Shown piece by piece: positions 43,976-58,100 of a stretch of DNA of 64,000 bases. Positions within the stretch are counted from its first letter, which is position 1, and every line of letters begins with the position of its first letter. The stretch spans positions 62,001 to 126,000 of the forward strand of contig JAODTK010001221.1 of the NCBI GenBank assembly GCA_026419785.1. The letters are read 5' to 3'. The DNA comes from Sclerodactyla briareus (lineage: Eukaryota > Echinodermata > Holothuroidea > Dendrochirotida > Sclerodactylidae). The notes beneath the pieces were generated by a model that was given only the letters and a program-made list of their open reading frames with translations, was not told where the DNA came from and did not search any database. The translations under genes were made by a program, and so were the position numbers.

Positions 43976-45604
43976 ATTACAACTTGTGTGTCAACCCGCA
44001 GGCGATGGCCAGTTTTCACATCAACCTCCCCCCCCCCCCCTTCTACTATTGGGACAGATTGCTGCTATTGGAGTTTGGACAGAAGTTTACTGCTTAGGAT
44101 TGTCCCCCCCTCCTCCCCCACTTCCCTAACACAATTAAAAAAAAAAAAATGTGTGGTTGCATGTAGACATTAATATCGATATTCGTCGGCTATGAAAAAA
44201 TGAAACATCCTATTAAACACTGTGCCTAACTGCTATAATCTGTATGTGTTAGCGCAGTTTGCACCGCAACCCTAGAGCATTTCAAGGTAATCCCAAGAGG
44301 GGGCAAGTTGGAAAGGTGACACAACCCCTACCTCATAACACCCAGTTCTCGCAAAGTATTAAAACCTTGTCCACCACACCAATTCAAACCCCATTCCCCC
44401 CCGCCAGCAGAGCAGCCCTGCATTCAGCCAGTGCCGCCTCCCGCAGGCGCTATTGATATCAGTAAGTATAGTTCATAATACCTGCTGTCATGGCTTATAT
44501 GGACTTGAGTTTTGTTGTCATGTGTTTGTGTTAAATACATGTTTTGTACCATATCTCTCTCTTCCCTCTTTCCTCCCCCCCCCTCTTCCCTCCCCCCCTC
44601 CCCCCTCCTTACCCCATTGCCTCGACCCACATCCTTCACAAATAACCATTCTCCTTGTCAACCTCTCCCTCAAACCAACCTGTCCTTCACTTGAGCGATT
44701 CACTTATATAAAGCCCCAACATGTGAGGAGGAAATCTGTCAACAAGTCTCCCCAGCAATTGTTTCCTGTGTGGGATCGTTAGAGACCTTCACATGTTAGC
44801 TCTTTGAATTTATGCCACACAGTGTTGTGACCATAACGCTACCGAAACTGTTCGTGACTTGACTATCTGCGCAAAGGTCGCTTAGGATCATCTGTTACGG
44901 TAGTTCCTACGTCGCCCCCCCCTATTCTTCTTTCGCAAGATCGCTCGTCAGGTACTGAACATTAATGCCCCGCCCAGTTATCAGTACCATTGGTCAGTGG
45001 TAGTACTGCGCACCATTCCCCAGATCATCCAGTCTGTTTTGTAGAGGTAGAAGCCCCTTAGCTGATTCAAATGAATGGCTGAAATTGACCCCCTAGAAAC
45101 ACCCTAAATTCACGAACACCACATTATTACCGTTAGTTACGGTTACCCGGAACTTTGTTGGTCAAAAAGAGGGTAGTTTAGAAAGAAATGAACAAAACTA
45201 ATGAGGGACCCAGATGTTGTTTTACTGTGGAAACTATCAGAAATGTACACCTTTTATAGCTTTGTCAGGGCTTTTCCTGATGATCTGGGGGGGGGGGAGG
45301 ATGGTGGGGGCTAATTTTCTTTTCAAAAGCTTATGGTGACACTCTGTTTAGATGGTCACATTCATAGTAAGCCCACTCCCCAGCTATATTACTCATATAA
45401 TGGTGTCTGTTGATCACTATTTACTTCCTTCTTTCAGGACCACAATCTTGTGTGAGTGGAGTGCATGGTTGACAGCATGATATGATTTAGTGACATATAT
45501 ACATTGGCACAATAGGATATATCTCACTAAAACTACTTTCTTCAGTCATATCATTCCTCGCAAATACCCCATGGAGTTTTTTTCCTCTCTCTTCGCTCCT
45601 GCAG
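43976..45604. other. Stretch upstream of the zinc-finger exon, probably intronic
   Basis: A donor-like GTAAGTATA lies at 44462, a polypyrimidine tract at 44550-44621, and an acceptor CTTCCTTCTTTCAG ends at 45437, followed after 14 bases by GTGAGTGG. The last pair could bound a microexon, but nothing confirms it. The acceptor of the zinc-finger exon is the pyrimidine-rich run 45577-45604, ending CTCCTGCAG. Confidence 0.35.
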
Positions 45605-47787
45605 TAACAGATGTTCGCCATGGTTTGATGACTACTGCTGGATTTGAATGGCTGACGAGGAAACTGTACGATTATCCAGTACGCCAAGTTCCCGATCCAG
45701 CCTATCAAGTGGTGGCCCGCAGAGACGTCGTGCAGCCGCTACCGCCGACTATTGACCTCACAAACAGGCCGCTCACCCCCAACGGCCAGCAGAGGAAGTT
45801 GTCATCATCATCATCATCCATTTCCAGTGGATCTGGCTTCCAGTGCAAACTCTGTAGCCTGGTGGCTTCTTCCCAGAGTGCATTGGATGAACATATGAAT
45901 ATTCATACTGGGAGCCGCCCCTACCAATGCCTGGAGTGCGGTTTCAGTTGTTCTCTTCAGGGCACCTTGACACAGCACCGTCGCAGTCCACAGAGTAGAG
46001 ATAGCAGCTCTCTGCTCATAGCGCTCGCCGTCGATGTGAAGAGATGCTAATCACCAAGGGATCAGCCCCTTCACTATACCCAGAGGTCCCGCGGACACTA
46101 GCTATCTCTAGCGCAGCGCCCCGATGCTCCACTCTGAGGAACTCATCCCGGTTCCCGCAGTGCCTGGGCCCGTTGGGGTTTTCCCTGATCAGAGCCGGTT
46201 ATTCCAGTGCAGCGCTGCACGCACATTTCTCCAACAAAGACTCACCTAAATGAGCACATGAATATTCATTCAGGCACGAAAAGCCTTACAAGTGCCTGGT
46301 GTGTGGCTTTAGCAGTGCCTTTCGCAGTAGCCTCATGCGTCACCTCATTGTGCCACGGGTACATCCAAGCAGTTCAAGTGTGATCAGTGCCACTATCAGA
46401 CCCCCTACAAGTGTAACCTGCAGGCACATCGTCGAAAGCGCCACAACTCTGTTGAGAACTCGGAAGTTCCGGAGACTAGTACCAACACTACCCAGCTGCC
46501 TGTCGAGGTCGCCAAAGTCCACACCCCTAACTCCAACCATTCGGATGACAGTCCGAGCGGGATGGGTGTTTACCCCTCCTCGGACATGTCCTCAGTTGGC
46601 TTCCCTTACAGCCAAGCTAACCAGGGCGCTGTGATGGGGGGGATCAGTGACCGTGACAGTCTCCCCAATGGTCCAATGAGGAGCAGCAGGGTCAGGAAGC
46701 TCAGGAAAACGTCTACCTCAGGGACAGTTGATGCCAACATAGCTGTAAAGAAAACGGCTACTCCTCTGCACCGGAGGGGCCATTACTGGTGTCTGCTGAC
46801 GAAACCTCATCACCAGCGACCAAACATGGCAGTAACGGAGGCAGCCCTGTTTGTGGGTCGGGTCCCGTCAGGAACATGGTGGCTACGTTGCTGAACATCA
46901 CTCTCAGGCTTCCTTCTCCCCACCAACATCAACGGAGAATGGCGATGGGGTCGCCCCTGACTCTGCAGGATCGGCGATGCTTGCGATGGGCGAACCAACT
47001 CCTACCTCTGCCTCGCCGATCGCCTCTCTCGCCAGATGGCAACCAGTCACTCGCCCCTGACTACAGAGAGCATTCCGGCCACCACCATGTGGCCTTCCAG
47101 TGCCGGGTTCCCAATCTTCATCAAGAAAAAGAAGGAGGGTGCCAAGAAGCGGAAACGCCCACCCCTTCCGAAGCGTGACCTGATGATGTCTCCCGAGCAG
47201 GAGATGTGGGTTGACACCCGCTCTGACAGTGGACGGATGATCGGGGACAGTCATCGACCATACTTCATCAATCTCCCTGGCGGCCCTACCAGCTGAAACC
47301 AGAAGAAGATCACGTCGCATATCCAGACCAGAATGGGGTTGACCTCTCAGCAAGCATCCCGAGAGACGATGATCGGGCAGGGACTCGTGCTGAACAACCA
47401 CAATTCGCCATCCGGGTGGCCCGTCACACAAGCCGCCACAAGCACTCGGAAGAGCCCCCGAAGACAAAGAACGCGGATTCCGTATCATTGTACCCCACCA
47501 AGCTGGGGTGCAGATGGGGGGTAAGGTCACCATCAGGTTTCTACGGGTACCCAGACAGATCAGTCTCTTCCTACCAAGGCTGATGGTAAGTTGGGTGATA
47601 GCATACCTCCTCAGGCTTCGAAGTGTCCCATTGTGAGACATACTTCACAGACCAGGTGATGTTCACTCTGCACATAGTTGCCATTGCTGGCCGAATCCCT
47701 CCGTTCCAATGTGGCATTTGCGGGTACATGTGCGGCGACAAGATTGAGTTCACTTGCCACATCACTCGTAGCAAGCATTTGAGGTAG
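45605..47787 (+). CDS. Ikaros/hunchback/TRPS1-type C2H2 zinc-finger transcription factor, terminal exon with frame breaks
   Basis: Seven C2H2 fingers are visible. Fingers 1-2 are at 45844-45991, fingers 3-5 at 46208-46444 and the C-terminal pair at 47624-47778. Fingers 1 and 3 are C-x2-C-x12-H-x3-H, and finger 5 closes with H-x4-H as in the last DNA-binding finger of Ikaros proteins. A lysine/arginine-rich segment (about 47122-47160, KKRKR) is a likely nuclear-localisation signal. The C-terminal pair (CETYF.DQVMFTLH, then PFQCGICG and CHITRSKH) matches the dimerisation fingers of IKZF proteins, hunchback and TRPS1. A serine run precedes finger 1. The exon starts after a strong acceptor, and the stop is TAG at 47785. 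About ten single- or two-base shifts break the frame, yet no finger Cys or His is lost. By family it should act as a nuclear DNA-binding regulator; the closest subfamily (Pegasus/IKZF5 by the finger spacers) is a guess. No GATA finger is seen here. Upstream exons are not found. Confidence 0.85.
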
Positions 47788-47947
47788 TCGGTTCTCAGGT
47801 GACCAGGGGAGGGGGCAAACCTCATTAGGGTTTGCCAGGTTTCCTCTGAACAAATTCAGGGCTAAATAGTAGAACTTATATTGAAGAAAGAAAAACATGA
47901 GATAATTTCGAAAAAAAATTATTTTGTAGCATATGTAATTCTGCAGG

Positions 47948-51100: not shown

Positions 51101-52424
51101 CGGTGCTTCAGTTTCTCCACCACGAGCATGATAATTCTAGCACTCTGCTTTTCCTGGTATTAACCATGTAACTCCTACCCTGGAGTTGTATTTCACTGCG
51201 GAATTGACCTTAAGAAATTACCTGTGGAGGGTTTGGGCTTCTGGGGGCAATGTTGTCTGTGTTAATGCTGACTTACTATTAGTCTGGCTAGTCACTAAAA
51301 CTATTGTTTTTAATACGTAATTTGCCTGTGTGTTGTTTAGTATGTAGGTATGCCTGTGTGTATCTATGTATGGTGTCCGAGGAGAGCGTAGATCGTCTTT
51401 CCATTGTCTTTTTGTATTATCGATATCCATTTAAACCAACAACTACCTCATCAGGCCCTAGTGATCAATCTAGTTATACTATCACCAATGCTTCATATGT
51501 GGGGGCAGAACAAAACAGTTTTGCTCCTGCTCCTGCCAAAAGACCAAGTTCAGGGACATATTTAGCATGTATGGTTCAGGGAGGTCATCAAAGGGAAATC
51601 AAGTACATAATTTGTAATATTAATCTTTATTCAGAGAAGTTCAGATTGAAAATTTTATAATTCTTTTTTTTTTTTGAATGTCGATTGGTTTCCCTCGTTT
51701 TTGTTTTTAAATCTGTGGAAGAAGCCGCACAATCCAAGTTGGCAACTAATAACTGACCTGGTTTTTTACCCGGTCAATCTCAAAATACGCTGGGACATGT
51801 TCATTATAGGGGGAGTTGGTTTCGGCTGTCACTCATTGCAGATGTTTTTGTATCCGATGATCTTTTCAATAAGAGTTATACATAGCACGGTTTTCCTCTG
51901 TGCAGAGCAAGTTCTCAGAAATATTTGTGTCGCTAATCTGACTAATGCTACCCTGGGACCCTTAATGATGGGCAAATTTGTTATGATAAGCTGAAATAAA
52001 CATACTTCCTGCTGATTTGGCAAGGGCAACCACTTGGTTGCAGCCAGAGAGCACAATGCTTCATGTGGACAAGAAATAAGCCTTCAGGAATGGTGCGCGG
52101 GGGGGGGGGGGGGGTATGTATGTTTGGCACCTGGTCTCCTGGAGCTGCCCCATTGGTATTTCTCTGTTGTTGTGATTTAATGACCATGGCAGTGAAACAT
52201 CTAAAAAACTGGACAAGCCATGTATACTCCAGTTGTAAATAGTGCTTGCCGCAATTAGATGCCACCCCCACCCACGCCATGTCACCCCTCCCACCTCAGC
52301 AATGTCAATGTCACTTGACTGTCACAATGACTTGATGTGTCACATTGTCCATTTTGTCCGTTGATGTCAATGTCACACTAGATGGACATACAGCTACCAC
52401 CAGCCACCCTGATTCAATGAGGGT
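48177..52424. other. Unassigned stretch with possible unrecognised exons
   Basis: Two plus-strand frames read like protein but match nothing I know: 50227-50406 (60 codons after a weak acceptor, ending in a stop) and 51411-51660 (Ser/Thr/Pro-rich, then APAPAKRPSS, ending in a stop). G tracts lie at about 48567-48578, 50905-50917 and 52099-52114 (G16). GT-rich segments lie at 50595-50642. Confidence 0.35.
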
Positions 52425-52692
52425 TGATCCAGCCATTGTGATTGTGTGACATTGATCCAGCCACAGTGATTGTGTGACATTTATCCAGTCAGTGATCCAG
52501 CCACAGTGATTGTGTGACATTGATCACGTTGTAGTGGATCCAGCCACAGTGATTGTGTGACATTTATCCAGTCACAGTGATCCAGCCACAGTGAATGTGT
52601 GACATTGATCCAGCCACAGTGATTGTGTGACATTTATCCAGTCAGTGATCCAGCCACAGTGAATGTGTGACAGTGATCCAGCCACAGTTATT
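52425..52692 (+). repeat. Minisatellite, 28 bp unit (ATCCAGCCACAGTGATTGTG)
   Basis: About eight units are interleaved with a shorter ATTTATCCAGTCAGTG variant, giving a higher-order alternation. Substitutions are few. Non-coding in all frames as far as I can tell. Confidence 0.92.
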
Positions 52693-54180
52693 GATCCAAA
52701 CTGTTGAACTCTTACAAATTGAGGTGATTCCCTCCAGAACGAAAGTTGTCCCCAACTCTGGGTGGGTCAATGAATTGGAAAGGGACACGATCGGTGAGGT
52801 GAAACCAAGCCAGATTGAAAAAGAGCTGATGAATTGTCCTCTATTAACTAATATGTCTCCAACGACATAAGAGGTACAATTATCTCAATAGTTGTTCAAT
52901 TTGTTGCAGTTGCCACAGCAAATGCTACACAAGGGGGATGTTTCAGCTATTGCCTTTATCACGCAGCTCAAAACCATTGCTGTTCCACCATTAAGTATGC
53001 AAGTCGACAGAGTGCTACAGAGGACTATACACTACTAGTGTGCACCATACAAATGTGTTGTTTATAGGTTTAATATGTATGGTTATACAATCCAGAGTAT
53101 CTCACCCCTGGAGGGGCATTATTCATGTACTATGGGGTCAAGTCCCACCTTCATTGTTACCTTTGAGTCAAAAAAACCACAAACGACCCACTTCCCTGCT
53201 GTCACCCCAGATTCCACATGACTACTGATATCCATTGAGCATTATCACCATCTATGGAGGGGTATGGAATACTGCAGTCTGCAGGGACCATGCTATTATC
53301 TATTATAGGGAGAAGGAGCCTAATAATGCCTATCAGAATTTTGGAAAGCATGCTACCCTCAAAGTGGGTGGTGGCACTGTGTAGAGTCGACTATTAGATC
53401 ATACTGACATTGAAACTTCAATTTGAGCCTAATGCCGGTGATTGGTATGTAGGTATTATAATATATCAAAGGCACCTGGGAGAGAGAGCAGTCAGTCTTG
53501 GATCAGCTTTTTTTCTACTTTCAGAAACTGTAAAATAGTTTGCGTGCACTAAATGGAATTGGGCGAGCACAGAAAATGGCACATGGCTAGAAACGTTTCT
53601 TGTATAATCTGTGTGTCTTTTTAATTCAGAAGTCTAGAGCCAGTCATTTCAATTATCGAACTATGATATTTCACTTAAAATGCTTACATTAATGACACTT
53701 ATATATCCATGAGTAATTTTCACCACTGATGCTTTATGTCTATTCAGGGATTTTTTTCTTCAGCAATGTAAACCACTAACAAAGTGCCAAGGGTGGCCCC
53801 CTCCATTGCCTCCGAGAGACATGAATTGGTTGTTTGGAGCAAAAAAGTTTTTGACCACAGTTCGTTTTCACTGAGCTCCTTGGCTGACTATGGCCTCTCC
53901 ACCGCTTTAGGTGGGTATTATGGGTTTGTCGGACGGAGACCGCCTCTCATTTCCAACGAGCAATCTGGCCGACTACGGCCCTCTCCATCCCTCTGTAATG
54001 GGAATCATCAACAGATTGAAAAATGACTTGTGTGTTTGTCACGTCTCCTTGGTGCACGCCATTCTCCAGTCAATTCACCTATCCGAACATGAAACAAGTC
54101 TAAAATTTATATTAATGGCTGTCACTCAGGTGATCCTGGGACCTAAATTGTCAGTGAACAAATACAAAGTTTGACTTGTG
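52693..54180. other. Unassigned stretch with a diverged ~78 bp duplication
   Basis: 52693-53060 is open in more than one frame and no family is recognisable. At about 53865-54010 two diverged tandem segments each contain CTGGC.GACTA.GGCC.CTCCA; both would encode an LADYG peptide, in different frames as the sequence stands. Confidence 0.35.
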
Positions 54181-54480: not shown

Positions 54481-55000
54481 TTTGGTGTCAGTTCACAGAA
54501 GTGTTATGACGTACCTCCTCGGACAATGACATACACATGTCAAGGATATAGGGGTGTATGTCATACAATTGAGGTGTTCCAAACAGAGGCCAGGCTGAGA
54601 TTGTAGATAGACTGAGATGTTCTGTATCTAATATCATTTAACCAATATCTGGGGAAGGTGAGAGTTCATTATGTATCCAATTCAATATTTGAACCAAGGG
54701 AATGTGGTATTTAGGCCAATCAGATTAGGTTGTTGAGCTTATTTTGCAGATTGCATCACTTGCTGGGACAGGTCATATTGTGTGATAGCGAAAGTTGAAC
54801 CGAATTTGACTCAGGAAAATGTAGACACCTCATTGTTATGGTCACATTTGCTACCTTGTGCTATTGTGCCATGTTTGAAGTTATTAACGCCTACCTGAAG
54901 AAATTTCAGCTTTTGGGTTGTGTCATGTCGCATTGTTAGACTAGGGTTGGTAATAGCATGTTGCCAGTTGTTGTCAAAGGTTTATATCATGTTGATTGTG
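54481..55000. other. Unassigned stretch
   Basis: Nothing is recognised. Near 54930-54970 there are degenerate forms of the minisatellite that follows. Confidence 0.4.
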
Positions 55001-55153
55001 AGGTTGGCTCAGGTTATATCATGGTGCAATTGTTGGAGGCTCGGGCTATATCATGTTGCATTGTTAGGCTGGGGTTATATCATGTTGCATTGTTAGGCTG
55101 GGGTTATATCATGTTGCATTGTTAGGCTGGGGTTATATCATGTTGCATTGTTA
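55001..55153 (+). repeat. Minisatellite, 29 bp unit (TTAGGCTGGGGTTATATCAT)
   Basis: Three almost identical 29 bp units lie at the 3' end, preceded by two diverged ones. The gradient from diverged to identical suggests recent expansion at the 3' side. Confidence 0.92.
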
Positions 55154-58100
55154 GCTACAGATGTTCATGTTCCTTCTTAAGGCTAGTGTTCGGGAGATAT
55201 CAATGCTGGATCCCTCCCCCCCCCAAAAAAAAAACGTGGCAGGAATGGAAAATTAGTCCATATTGCCCCCAAAAATTCATCCCAATAAATGAGATGAGCT
55301 CCGAGATTGAACATTCACCTCTTGTATCAACTTACATTGATGGTACCACAATTGGAACCTAATGGAACATCCTCCCTAAATGAAGTCGACGTCCATTTCC
55401 ATGTTAGTTGCAAAGTAATATTTATCATTCTGCGTCATTACATTTGCTCTCTTCTAAAATCTTTGACCTTCACAAAACTGTGATTTTAACATCTAGGCCA
55501 CATCCTGCATTGGCTGGTACCTGTGGAATCTTGGTCCAATTTTGCCACTACGCCTCCGCTGTTGTTATACACAAGATACGGGAAAACACAGGTCACCTCA
55601 CAAATTATTTCTTGCTCCTCCAAAAAATTCCTCAATGGAAATCAGGATCACAAATTTTGTAACGGTAAGATTGTCATCTGATCTTTTAGATAGTCCAGCA
55701 GCTAACTCTCCACCTGGTACTAGGGTCGACTTTTGTGAATAAAACATCTGGCCATCTTGTTTCTCCATCCATTGTTTTGGTATATTTCAGTCTGAAAATC
55801 TGTGACGCATGTCTCACTGATCAGTAGCCGTGCTCGATTTTTATGAAAAATGAACTATCAATGCTATAACGAACCCAGGGTTGTTGAGTCTTCTTTTACT
55901 AAATTATACCTTCTGTTTTGGGCATATTTGTTTCTGTTTTTAATTGTTTTACCGAGTGCGATTCCCCTGGATGGGCCAAGACATTACTTACCTCTTCATG
56001 TCAATCAGGACACACTTTCGGTTCAACAATAGTCATATTTCCTTTTTGTACAGTGAGAATTTTTGGAAGATGGTATTTTCAGCACTTTTCTCTTCTTTTT
56101 CTTCAAATATCTACAAATTTCTATCAGGTTCAAATTAATGAACGGGAAAAGAATTGGAGTATCTTGTCAATATTCTATTCAACTGGTTTTTTAATCTATA
56201 CTACCTCTTAATGAGAAAATTTGTACTGTGTTCCTTTTGGTTTGTGAGGACTGGGCTGCCAGCACCCTTCTGGCACCGAGTGCAAAATGATAGAGTAGGA
56301 GACCTCAAAACCTCAGGCAACAAACTGTGCTTTGGGTATTGCCTCCGGATTTGGGAATTCAATAAAACTGCTTGCTCAAGTTGGTTGCTTCTGTGTCCTG
56401 TGAACAGTCATTGTATCTTTGGATCGATCACAGGACTTCGATGCTATCTAGTTATTCCCAGTACATCATGCATAGTCCTGTTTTATCGTCTGAGTAGCCA
56501 TATTGGCTTTTCCGTGAACGCTGTTCCTTATTCGTTCTCCGGTTTTTGAGGATACTCATGTTGTAAATCACTAGAAGTTGAGTGTCTGTTTGAAGAAGTA
56601 AAATATCTTGTGACTCAGGGATTTTTTGTGTGTAATATAATTTGTAGAAGTTTTCTGTTGAGAGAGAAAAATCCTTCCATTTTCAAAATCCTATTATTGA
56701 CTGTGGTTGTATGCATAAGAGAAAGGTTACAAAACTTGTTGGCATGAACAGAGAGTTATATAATTTTGTCAATGTCTTGATGGATCCAACTCTTGCGAGT
56801 CCAAATTGTGAATTTGTGTCTTTGTTATTAAACTTCATTATTTTTCTTTTCCTTTGTTTCCCTCTTTTTACCCTTTCTTTTTATAATATTTTAACAATAA
56901 TTATTATTCATCATGGCAGTAGCTTTTGAGGGGGGGGGCTTTGTGAGTTGGAGCTCCTGTCTGCATGTAGAAATGTATGTAAATATAATCTGTAGTTTTA
57001 GTGAAATGGGTAAAATGTTGAAATATTTTCACAATATTTGAGTTGCTTTTGGAATTGTCTGGATACATCTCTACCAATTGCCTGGCAAGGAGGTTGTTCC
57101 CCTCAGAATGCATGATGAACATACTGGGCATTAGTAACACAGTATTTTGGATGTCAGTCAAGGTCACACAAAATGGTTATTGTATGTTTGGTTGCGACTC
57201 GTCGTAAAACACATCCTCATAAAAATCACTGCCACGTCCATCTGTCATTTTCCTATTAAAGGTATCGTCATGCGTATATGCAGAGATATCGAATCGGATT
57301 CGTCTGTGAGAAAATGAGTTGAAGGCAATTTTGTGGTAGCGTAAAGAACCGGTATGCTAAATATAAATTTACCCAAAAGGGACTTGCCGCTGCCAGTTCG
57401 GACCCTTGATCCTACAGCAGTAATTGAATGCTGTAAAAGAAATTGATATGTCAACATTTTCGTTTTACGCCTTTCTTACAATCCAATGTCTAAATATCAG
57501 TCACAACACCGCTATTGTAAATATTTAAAATAAAAAATCTCTTCTGGGTAATATTGCTGGATTCGCACCATCTGAATGCTTCTTGTTTCTCCCCTCTCAG
57601 CCAAACTGGAATTGTGATTGGAATGCTAGTATCCAATCAGTTGGCATTATTCACCAGTGCTCTGAGAGATTAATCGCTTGATAAGAATCGGGAATTTCTA
57701 ATCTTGAATTCTTCATATACCCCATTTAAGGGAAAAAAACTGGTAGCCAATCAGGTTTGTGTAACAGAAGACTCCGTGATGGCACTAATTTGCATAAGGG
57801 AGCATCCCCTACAATTTTGACCATTTAAATAAGTCCTCTCTCTCTGGGAGCAAACGACCGGAAAAGCACTGGCAACGACATTGCAAAACAATGGAAAATA
57901 GTCCCAGTTCAATTTGATACTATAGCACCGTCCGTTTTTCGATGGACGTTGAGAGAAGACAATACCACTTCAAAGCTTCATTCCGCCTTTGCTATATTCA
58001 AGAAAATGAGCATCATTGATACTGAGAGTGAATGCCATCGTTTGATAGCTCGTTTACAAGAACTCCAGTAAAAAAATACAGCACTCAAAAATGAGTTCTG

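Follow-up and report, generated by a model that had tools for sequence, protein, structure and literature searches.

A frame-damaged, probably functional Ikaros-family gene with a 2+3+2 zinc-finger layout, leaning towards Pegasus, in Sclerodactyla briareus

The DNA analysed here, hereafter the window, is a stretch of 64,000 bases (bases 62,001-126,000 of one contig) of the Sclerodactyla briareus draft assembly, whose 319 Mb in 3,171 contigs were also searched. Seven C2H2 fingers, grouped 2+3+2 and ending in an Ikaros-type C-terminal pair, lie at 45,605-47,787 on its + strand, and the locus is genuine. The fingers were designated N1-N2 (N pair), M3-M5 (middle triple) and C1-C2 (C pair), and the features are listed below, with finger ends approximate wherever the frame breaks.

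45581..45604, + strand: splice acceptor, a long pyrimidine tract ending in CAG; exon start
45605..47787, + strand: coding exon whose frame is broken in the assembly (three-frame decode, printed frames)
45838..45906, + strand: finger N1, four ligands in a single frame; the N pair is above the Pfam zf-C2H2 cut-off
45922..45991, + strand: finger N2, whose second His requires a frame slip near 45990; the N pair is above the zf-C2H2 cut-off
45992..46201, + strand: spacer between N2 and M3, about 70 codons (210 bases), without a clean open frame; GC 0.584, no good donor
46202..46269, + strand: finger M3, read through a frame break that separates its two Cys
46287..46356, + strand: finger M4, read through a frame break that separates its two His
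46373..46444, + strand: finger M5, H-x4-H, single frame
47123..47176, + strand: Lys/Arg-rich stretch read from the sequence, probable nuclear localisation signal
47621..47684, + strand: finger C1 of the dimerisation-type pair, frame breaks inside
47704..47778, + strand: finger C2 of the dimerisation-type pair, H-x5-H (HITRSKH)
47785-47787, + strand: stop TAG, two codons past the last His of C2
47948..47953, + strand: AATAAA, a possible polyadenylation signal by its sequence

The 2+3+2 order, the spacer after the second finger and the basic segment ahead of the C pair all agree with a first-pass annotation of this DNA. That annotation also held that the fingers could be counted directly; the count of seven was borne out, but only three of the seven (N1, M5 and C2) fit the strict C2H2 pattern in an unbroken frame, and the zinc ligands of the other four (N2, M3, M4 and C1) were read via frame switches inside or beside the finger, with frames picked by eye. 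Likewise, the H-x4-H that it gave to the last finger is right for M5, but the very last finger, C2, has H-x5-H, which is the Ikaros spacing. Approximately 390 codons separate the fifth and sixth fingers, and the lysine-rich stretch falls within them. One frame of this long linker carries VDLS (47338-47349), which is partly like the CtBP-binding motif, PxDLS in Ikaros.

In Pfam, the N pair and the middle triple matched only generic C2H2 models, and the C pair nothing above cut-off (four weak families); NCBIfam, a prokaryote library, had no match for the N pair or the C pair. Among the best 60 of 130 PDB matches for each of the C pair and the triple, generic fingers stood at the top, and a provisional Ikaros C pair found two PDB matches at E <= 1e-6, both generic fingers. 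Alignment-free fold prediction gave a poor model of N1-N2, with a mean pLDDT of 47.5, which was left out of the argument.

With the AG sites of the window graded by a simple home-made measure of the pyrimidine tract, the acceptor ending at 45,604 came in the top 3 out of 3596. There are two candidate start codons, ATG 45628, which shares the frame of N1-N2, and ATG 45648, in a different frame; alternatively, coding may enter from an upstream exon. The GC content of the spacer (0.584) is exon-like against 0.427 for the window, where of 324 bins, each 197 bases long, only 5 reach that value, and the best splice donor within 45900-46200 has 6 of 9 consensus letters. An intron in the spacer was judged unlikely on this evidence. 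One exon, as the first-pass annotation had it, is thus favoured, with the three-frame decode described below pointing the same way, and the C pair and the DNA-binding finger cluster would then share one exon and one protein. The same stretch bears on whether N1-N2 and M3-C2 might instead belong to two adjacent genes or to exons of different transcripts. The spacer, the messiest part of the locus and without a clean frame, would suit such a split, but its exon-like GC, the want of a good donor and the likeness between N1-N2 and this gene's own M3-M4 all speak against it, and we give it very little credence.

Coding potential was assessed by a codon scan, with 25 finger ORFs of other loci in the same genome as its training set, in which the best segment of the window was 46,334-46,867 (35 bits), compared with 17.6 bits for the best outside the gene. 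Three-frame decoding of 45648-47790 scored +78 at the lowest shift penalty, against -85 for the best of 78 equally long controls from the window, and the ranking was unchanged at two other shift penalties. Read on the antisense strand, 45648-47790 scored -14.5, also above the controls, and base composition therefore accounts for part of the coding-score excess. The automatic decode departs from the frame chosen by eye in M3 and in the middle of the C pair. In the rest of the 64,000-base window no segment exceeded 17.6 bits, which may reflect short or frame-broken exons. Tandem-repeat arrays lie at 52424-52693 (units of 28-68 bases) and 54982-55154 (unit of 29 bases).

Family placement was sought with provisional comparator sequences of IKZF5 (Pegasus), IKZF1 (Ikaros), TRPS1 and hunchback. 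With the window pair read through its breaks, the C pair scored 172 with Pegasus, 161 with Ikaros, 154 with TRPS1 and 109 with hunchback; against 46 other finger pairs from retrieved loci of the same genome, it never exceeded 70. When a provisional Ikaros-type C pair was used as a genome-wide query, the locus came first of nine matches (E 2.1e-10; next 0.0011); a provisional hunchback C pair also found it first, of 12 and weakly (E 0.0017). The first-pass assignment to the Ikaros/hunchback/TRPS1 group by way of the C pair is upheld by these scores, far above those of generic pairs, and by the genome-wide query. Membership of this superfamily is sound, provided that the comparator sequences are right. 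No second Ikaros-type C pair was found in the assembly, where one with a break inside the pair could be missed. A search of bacterial and archaeal contigs with the N pair gave 321 pattern matches, none of them confirmed, and viral contigs searched with the C pair yielded no relative. COX1 had no match in the assembly, from which the mitochondrial genome is perhaps absent.

The middle triple, again with provisional comparators, scored 174 with IKZF5, 133.5 with IKZF1 fingers 2-4, 118.5 with hunchback and 109 with IKZF1 fingers 1-3, and 18 generic triples of the same genome reached at most 132, a value that Ikaros hardly exceeds. With the provisional Pegasus triple as a genome query, other finger genes ranked above the locus: the N pair came ninth among 58 matches, and at E <= 0.001 the frame-broken triple itself was unlisted. 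A tree from fingers and C pair had been suggested as the way to place the gene; in small four-taxon tests using the provisional comparators, the triple and C pair leaned towards Pegasus but rejected no placement (concatenated p-AU 0.84, 0.23 and 0.18). The C pair alone did not separate Pegasus from Ikaros, and with TRPS1 replacing hunchback the TRPS1 grouping was level or slightly ahead (0.56 vs 0.54). Pegasus is the best lean within the superfamily, but no alternative is excluded by these small trees.

TRPS1 shares the same type of C pair and drew level with Pegasus in that one tree test; it is, however, defined by a GATA finger. Such a finger, which the first-pass annotation had proposed looking for upstream, was absent from the six frames of the window as the pattern C-x2-C-x16-19-C-x2-C, although one that is frame-broken, or that lies in an exon beyond the window, could be missed; this result speaks against TRPS1. 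Hunchback has separate finger clusters with a middle cluster of four, and the succession at the locus, from N pair through middle block to C pair, resembles these split clusters, so that the gene might be a hunchback orthologue minus one middle finger. Against this, hunchback scored lowest of the four comparators for the C pair and second lowest for the triple, and the middle cluster of the locus has three fingers rather than four; we find such orthology scarcely credible. Greater weight is due to the idea, overlapping with the one we prefer, that the gene is a stem member of the family outside all vertebrate subgroups and is Pegasus-like through retained ancestral features. Trees without a firm placement and the sole Ikaros-type C pair found in the assembly would fit a stem position, but both triple and C pair score highest with Pegasus, and we regard it as somewhat unlikely.

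Pegasus has a three-finger DNA-binding cluster and a C pair at the protein end, and its provisional sequence gave the top score for both the triple and the C pair. In Ikaros, the C pair ends in HITR-x2-H and the last DNA-binding finger is H-x4-H; the C-pair ending and M5 of the locus match both. According to PMC10291195, IKZF1 has six fingers and IKZF5 has five, with the site GNNTGTNG, and PMC8689071 describes Ikaros as having four fingers at the N terminus and, at the C terminus, two for dimerisation. The locus differs from Ikaros in having 2+3 fingers before the C pair, and from Pegasus in having seven fingers, with an extra pair upstream, and a long lysine-rich stretch ahead of the C pair. 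The family is described in PMC12506653 as having four DNA-binding fingers plus the C pair, and the same paper gives nine fingers for HBL-1 of C. elegans; the family is thus already known to exceed the vertebrate finger number in some members, and the locus resembles hunchback and HBL-1 in its C pair and in a finger number above that of vertebrate members. Further hunchback/Ikaros-like genes of C. elegans, ehn-3 and ztf-16, are named in PMC3962486. Among the titles listed in literature searches, none concerned a 2+3+2 layout, and we make no claim that it is unpublished.

The extra N pair scored 140 with M3-M4 of its own gene and 121 with IKZF5 fingers 2-3, the best family pair in a provisional set without the hunchback N-terminal fingers, compared with at most 102 for 46 finger pairs of the genome. 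When the genome was searched with the middle triple, N1-N2 was the best match beyond the triple's own site (46% identity; E 6.8e-11, against 4.5e-7 for the next match). With N1-N2 as the query instead, M3-M4 was unlisted at E <= 1, an absence that its frame breaks presumably explain. Since N1-N2 is closest to M3-M4 of the same gene, its simplest reading from sequence similarity is that it is probably an internal duplication of M3-M4. The DNA-reading helix positions, taken from the sequence and numbered in the customary way, differ between N1-N2 and M3-M4, so the two need not read the same DNA. The first-pass suggestion of an intermediate between Ikaros and hunchback is unsupported on three counts: hunchback gives the worst C-pair score of the four (109 vs 172 for Pegasus), the triple leans to Pegasus (174, where Ikaros fingers 2-4 reach 133.5 and hunchback 118.5), and the N pair is nearest to its own M3-M4, pointing to duplication within the gene. 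Within a well-known family, the gene is an unusual variant and not a missing link. It seems very unlikely that its layout of separate N-terminal pair, DNA-binding cluster and C pair, kept or re-created in the animal's sole gene of the Ikaros/hunchback type, represents an ancestral arrangement that gave rise to Pegasus, Ikaros, TRPS1 and hunchback through loss and gain of fingers.

In the three-frame decode, the frame switches approximately 8-13 times in 2.1 kb, the number being set by the shift penalty, and one in-frame stop was taken at the two higher of the three penalties. Such damage is what a recently dead Ikaros-family gene, a unitary pseudogene with real breaks and without a working protein, would display. 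For comparison, GPCR loci of the same draft were examined, using 126 PF00001 matches from which 44 rows with near neighbours were chosen by eye. All 16 neighbouring pairs that overlapped or lay at most 44 bases apart, at 14 loci, differed in frame, a figure that is not a rate because same-frame neighbours would have been merged; part of these 14 frame-broken loci may be real pseudogenes. In the finger array at C198:158500-161500, nine of the 12 listed units slip frame; their linker A run is longer than that of the in-frame units, and their spacing is 85 vs 84 bases. This slip could be an old one later amplified rather than an assembly error. Outside C198, 33 of 35 finger-to-finger links at 32 loci are in frame, in a count that fingers broken inside escape, and the Ikaros-type gene is therefore more broken than most, as a dead gene would be. 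Histone matches (four) were too few for judging frame quality.

On the other side, each of the seven fingers shows its zinc ligands when slips are allowed and frames are chosen by eye, the coding signal continues over 2.1 kb, the splice acceptor is strong, and assembly searches found neither a second nor an intact parent copy of the gene. As similar contiguous breaks occur at the 14 GPCR loci of the same draft, some of them possibly pseudogenes, assembly error, although unproven, is the likelier cause, and the gene would then be intact in the living animal; we consider a dead gene distinctly unlikely.

The explanation that we favour, and hold to be reasonably probable, is a single-copy Pegasus-like Ikaros-family gene in which N1-N2 was duplicated from M3-M4, with breaks that are assembly errors and a gene intact in the animal. 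On this explanation, the M3-M5 DNA-binding triple and the C1-C2 dimerisation pair would be standard family parts, to which N1-N2 would have been added upstream by copying M3-M4 inside the gene, and one exon would encode one protein from N1 to C2. The basic stretch would serve nuclear entry, M3-M5 would make the main contacts with DNA, and N1-N2 would be an added module that adds or alters contacts. By analogy with other members of the Ikaros family, the protein would self-associate via C1-C2 and switch target genes. The locus is thus probably a functional, frame-damaged Ikaros-family transcription-factor gene, leaning towards Pegasus.

The gene, the only one of its kind found in the assembly, joins an Ikaros dimerisation pair to an enlarged, apparently duplicated DNA-binding region. 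It bears on the origin of separate finger clusters, and alone does not settle the relationship of hunchback and Ikaros. If the layout holds true in the transcript and in relatives, it would mean that fingers have been added in this family through copying within the gene.
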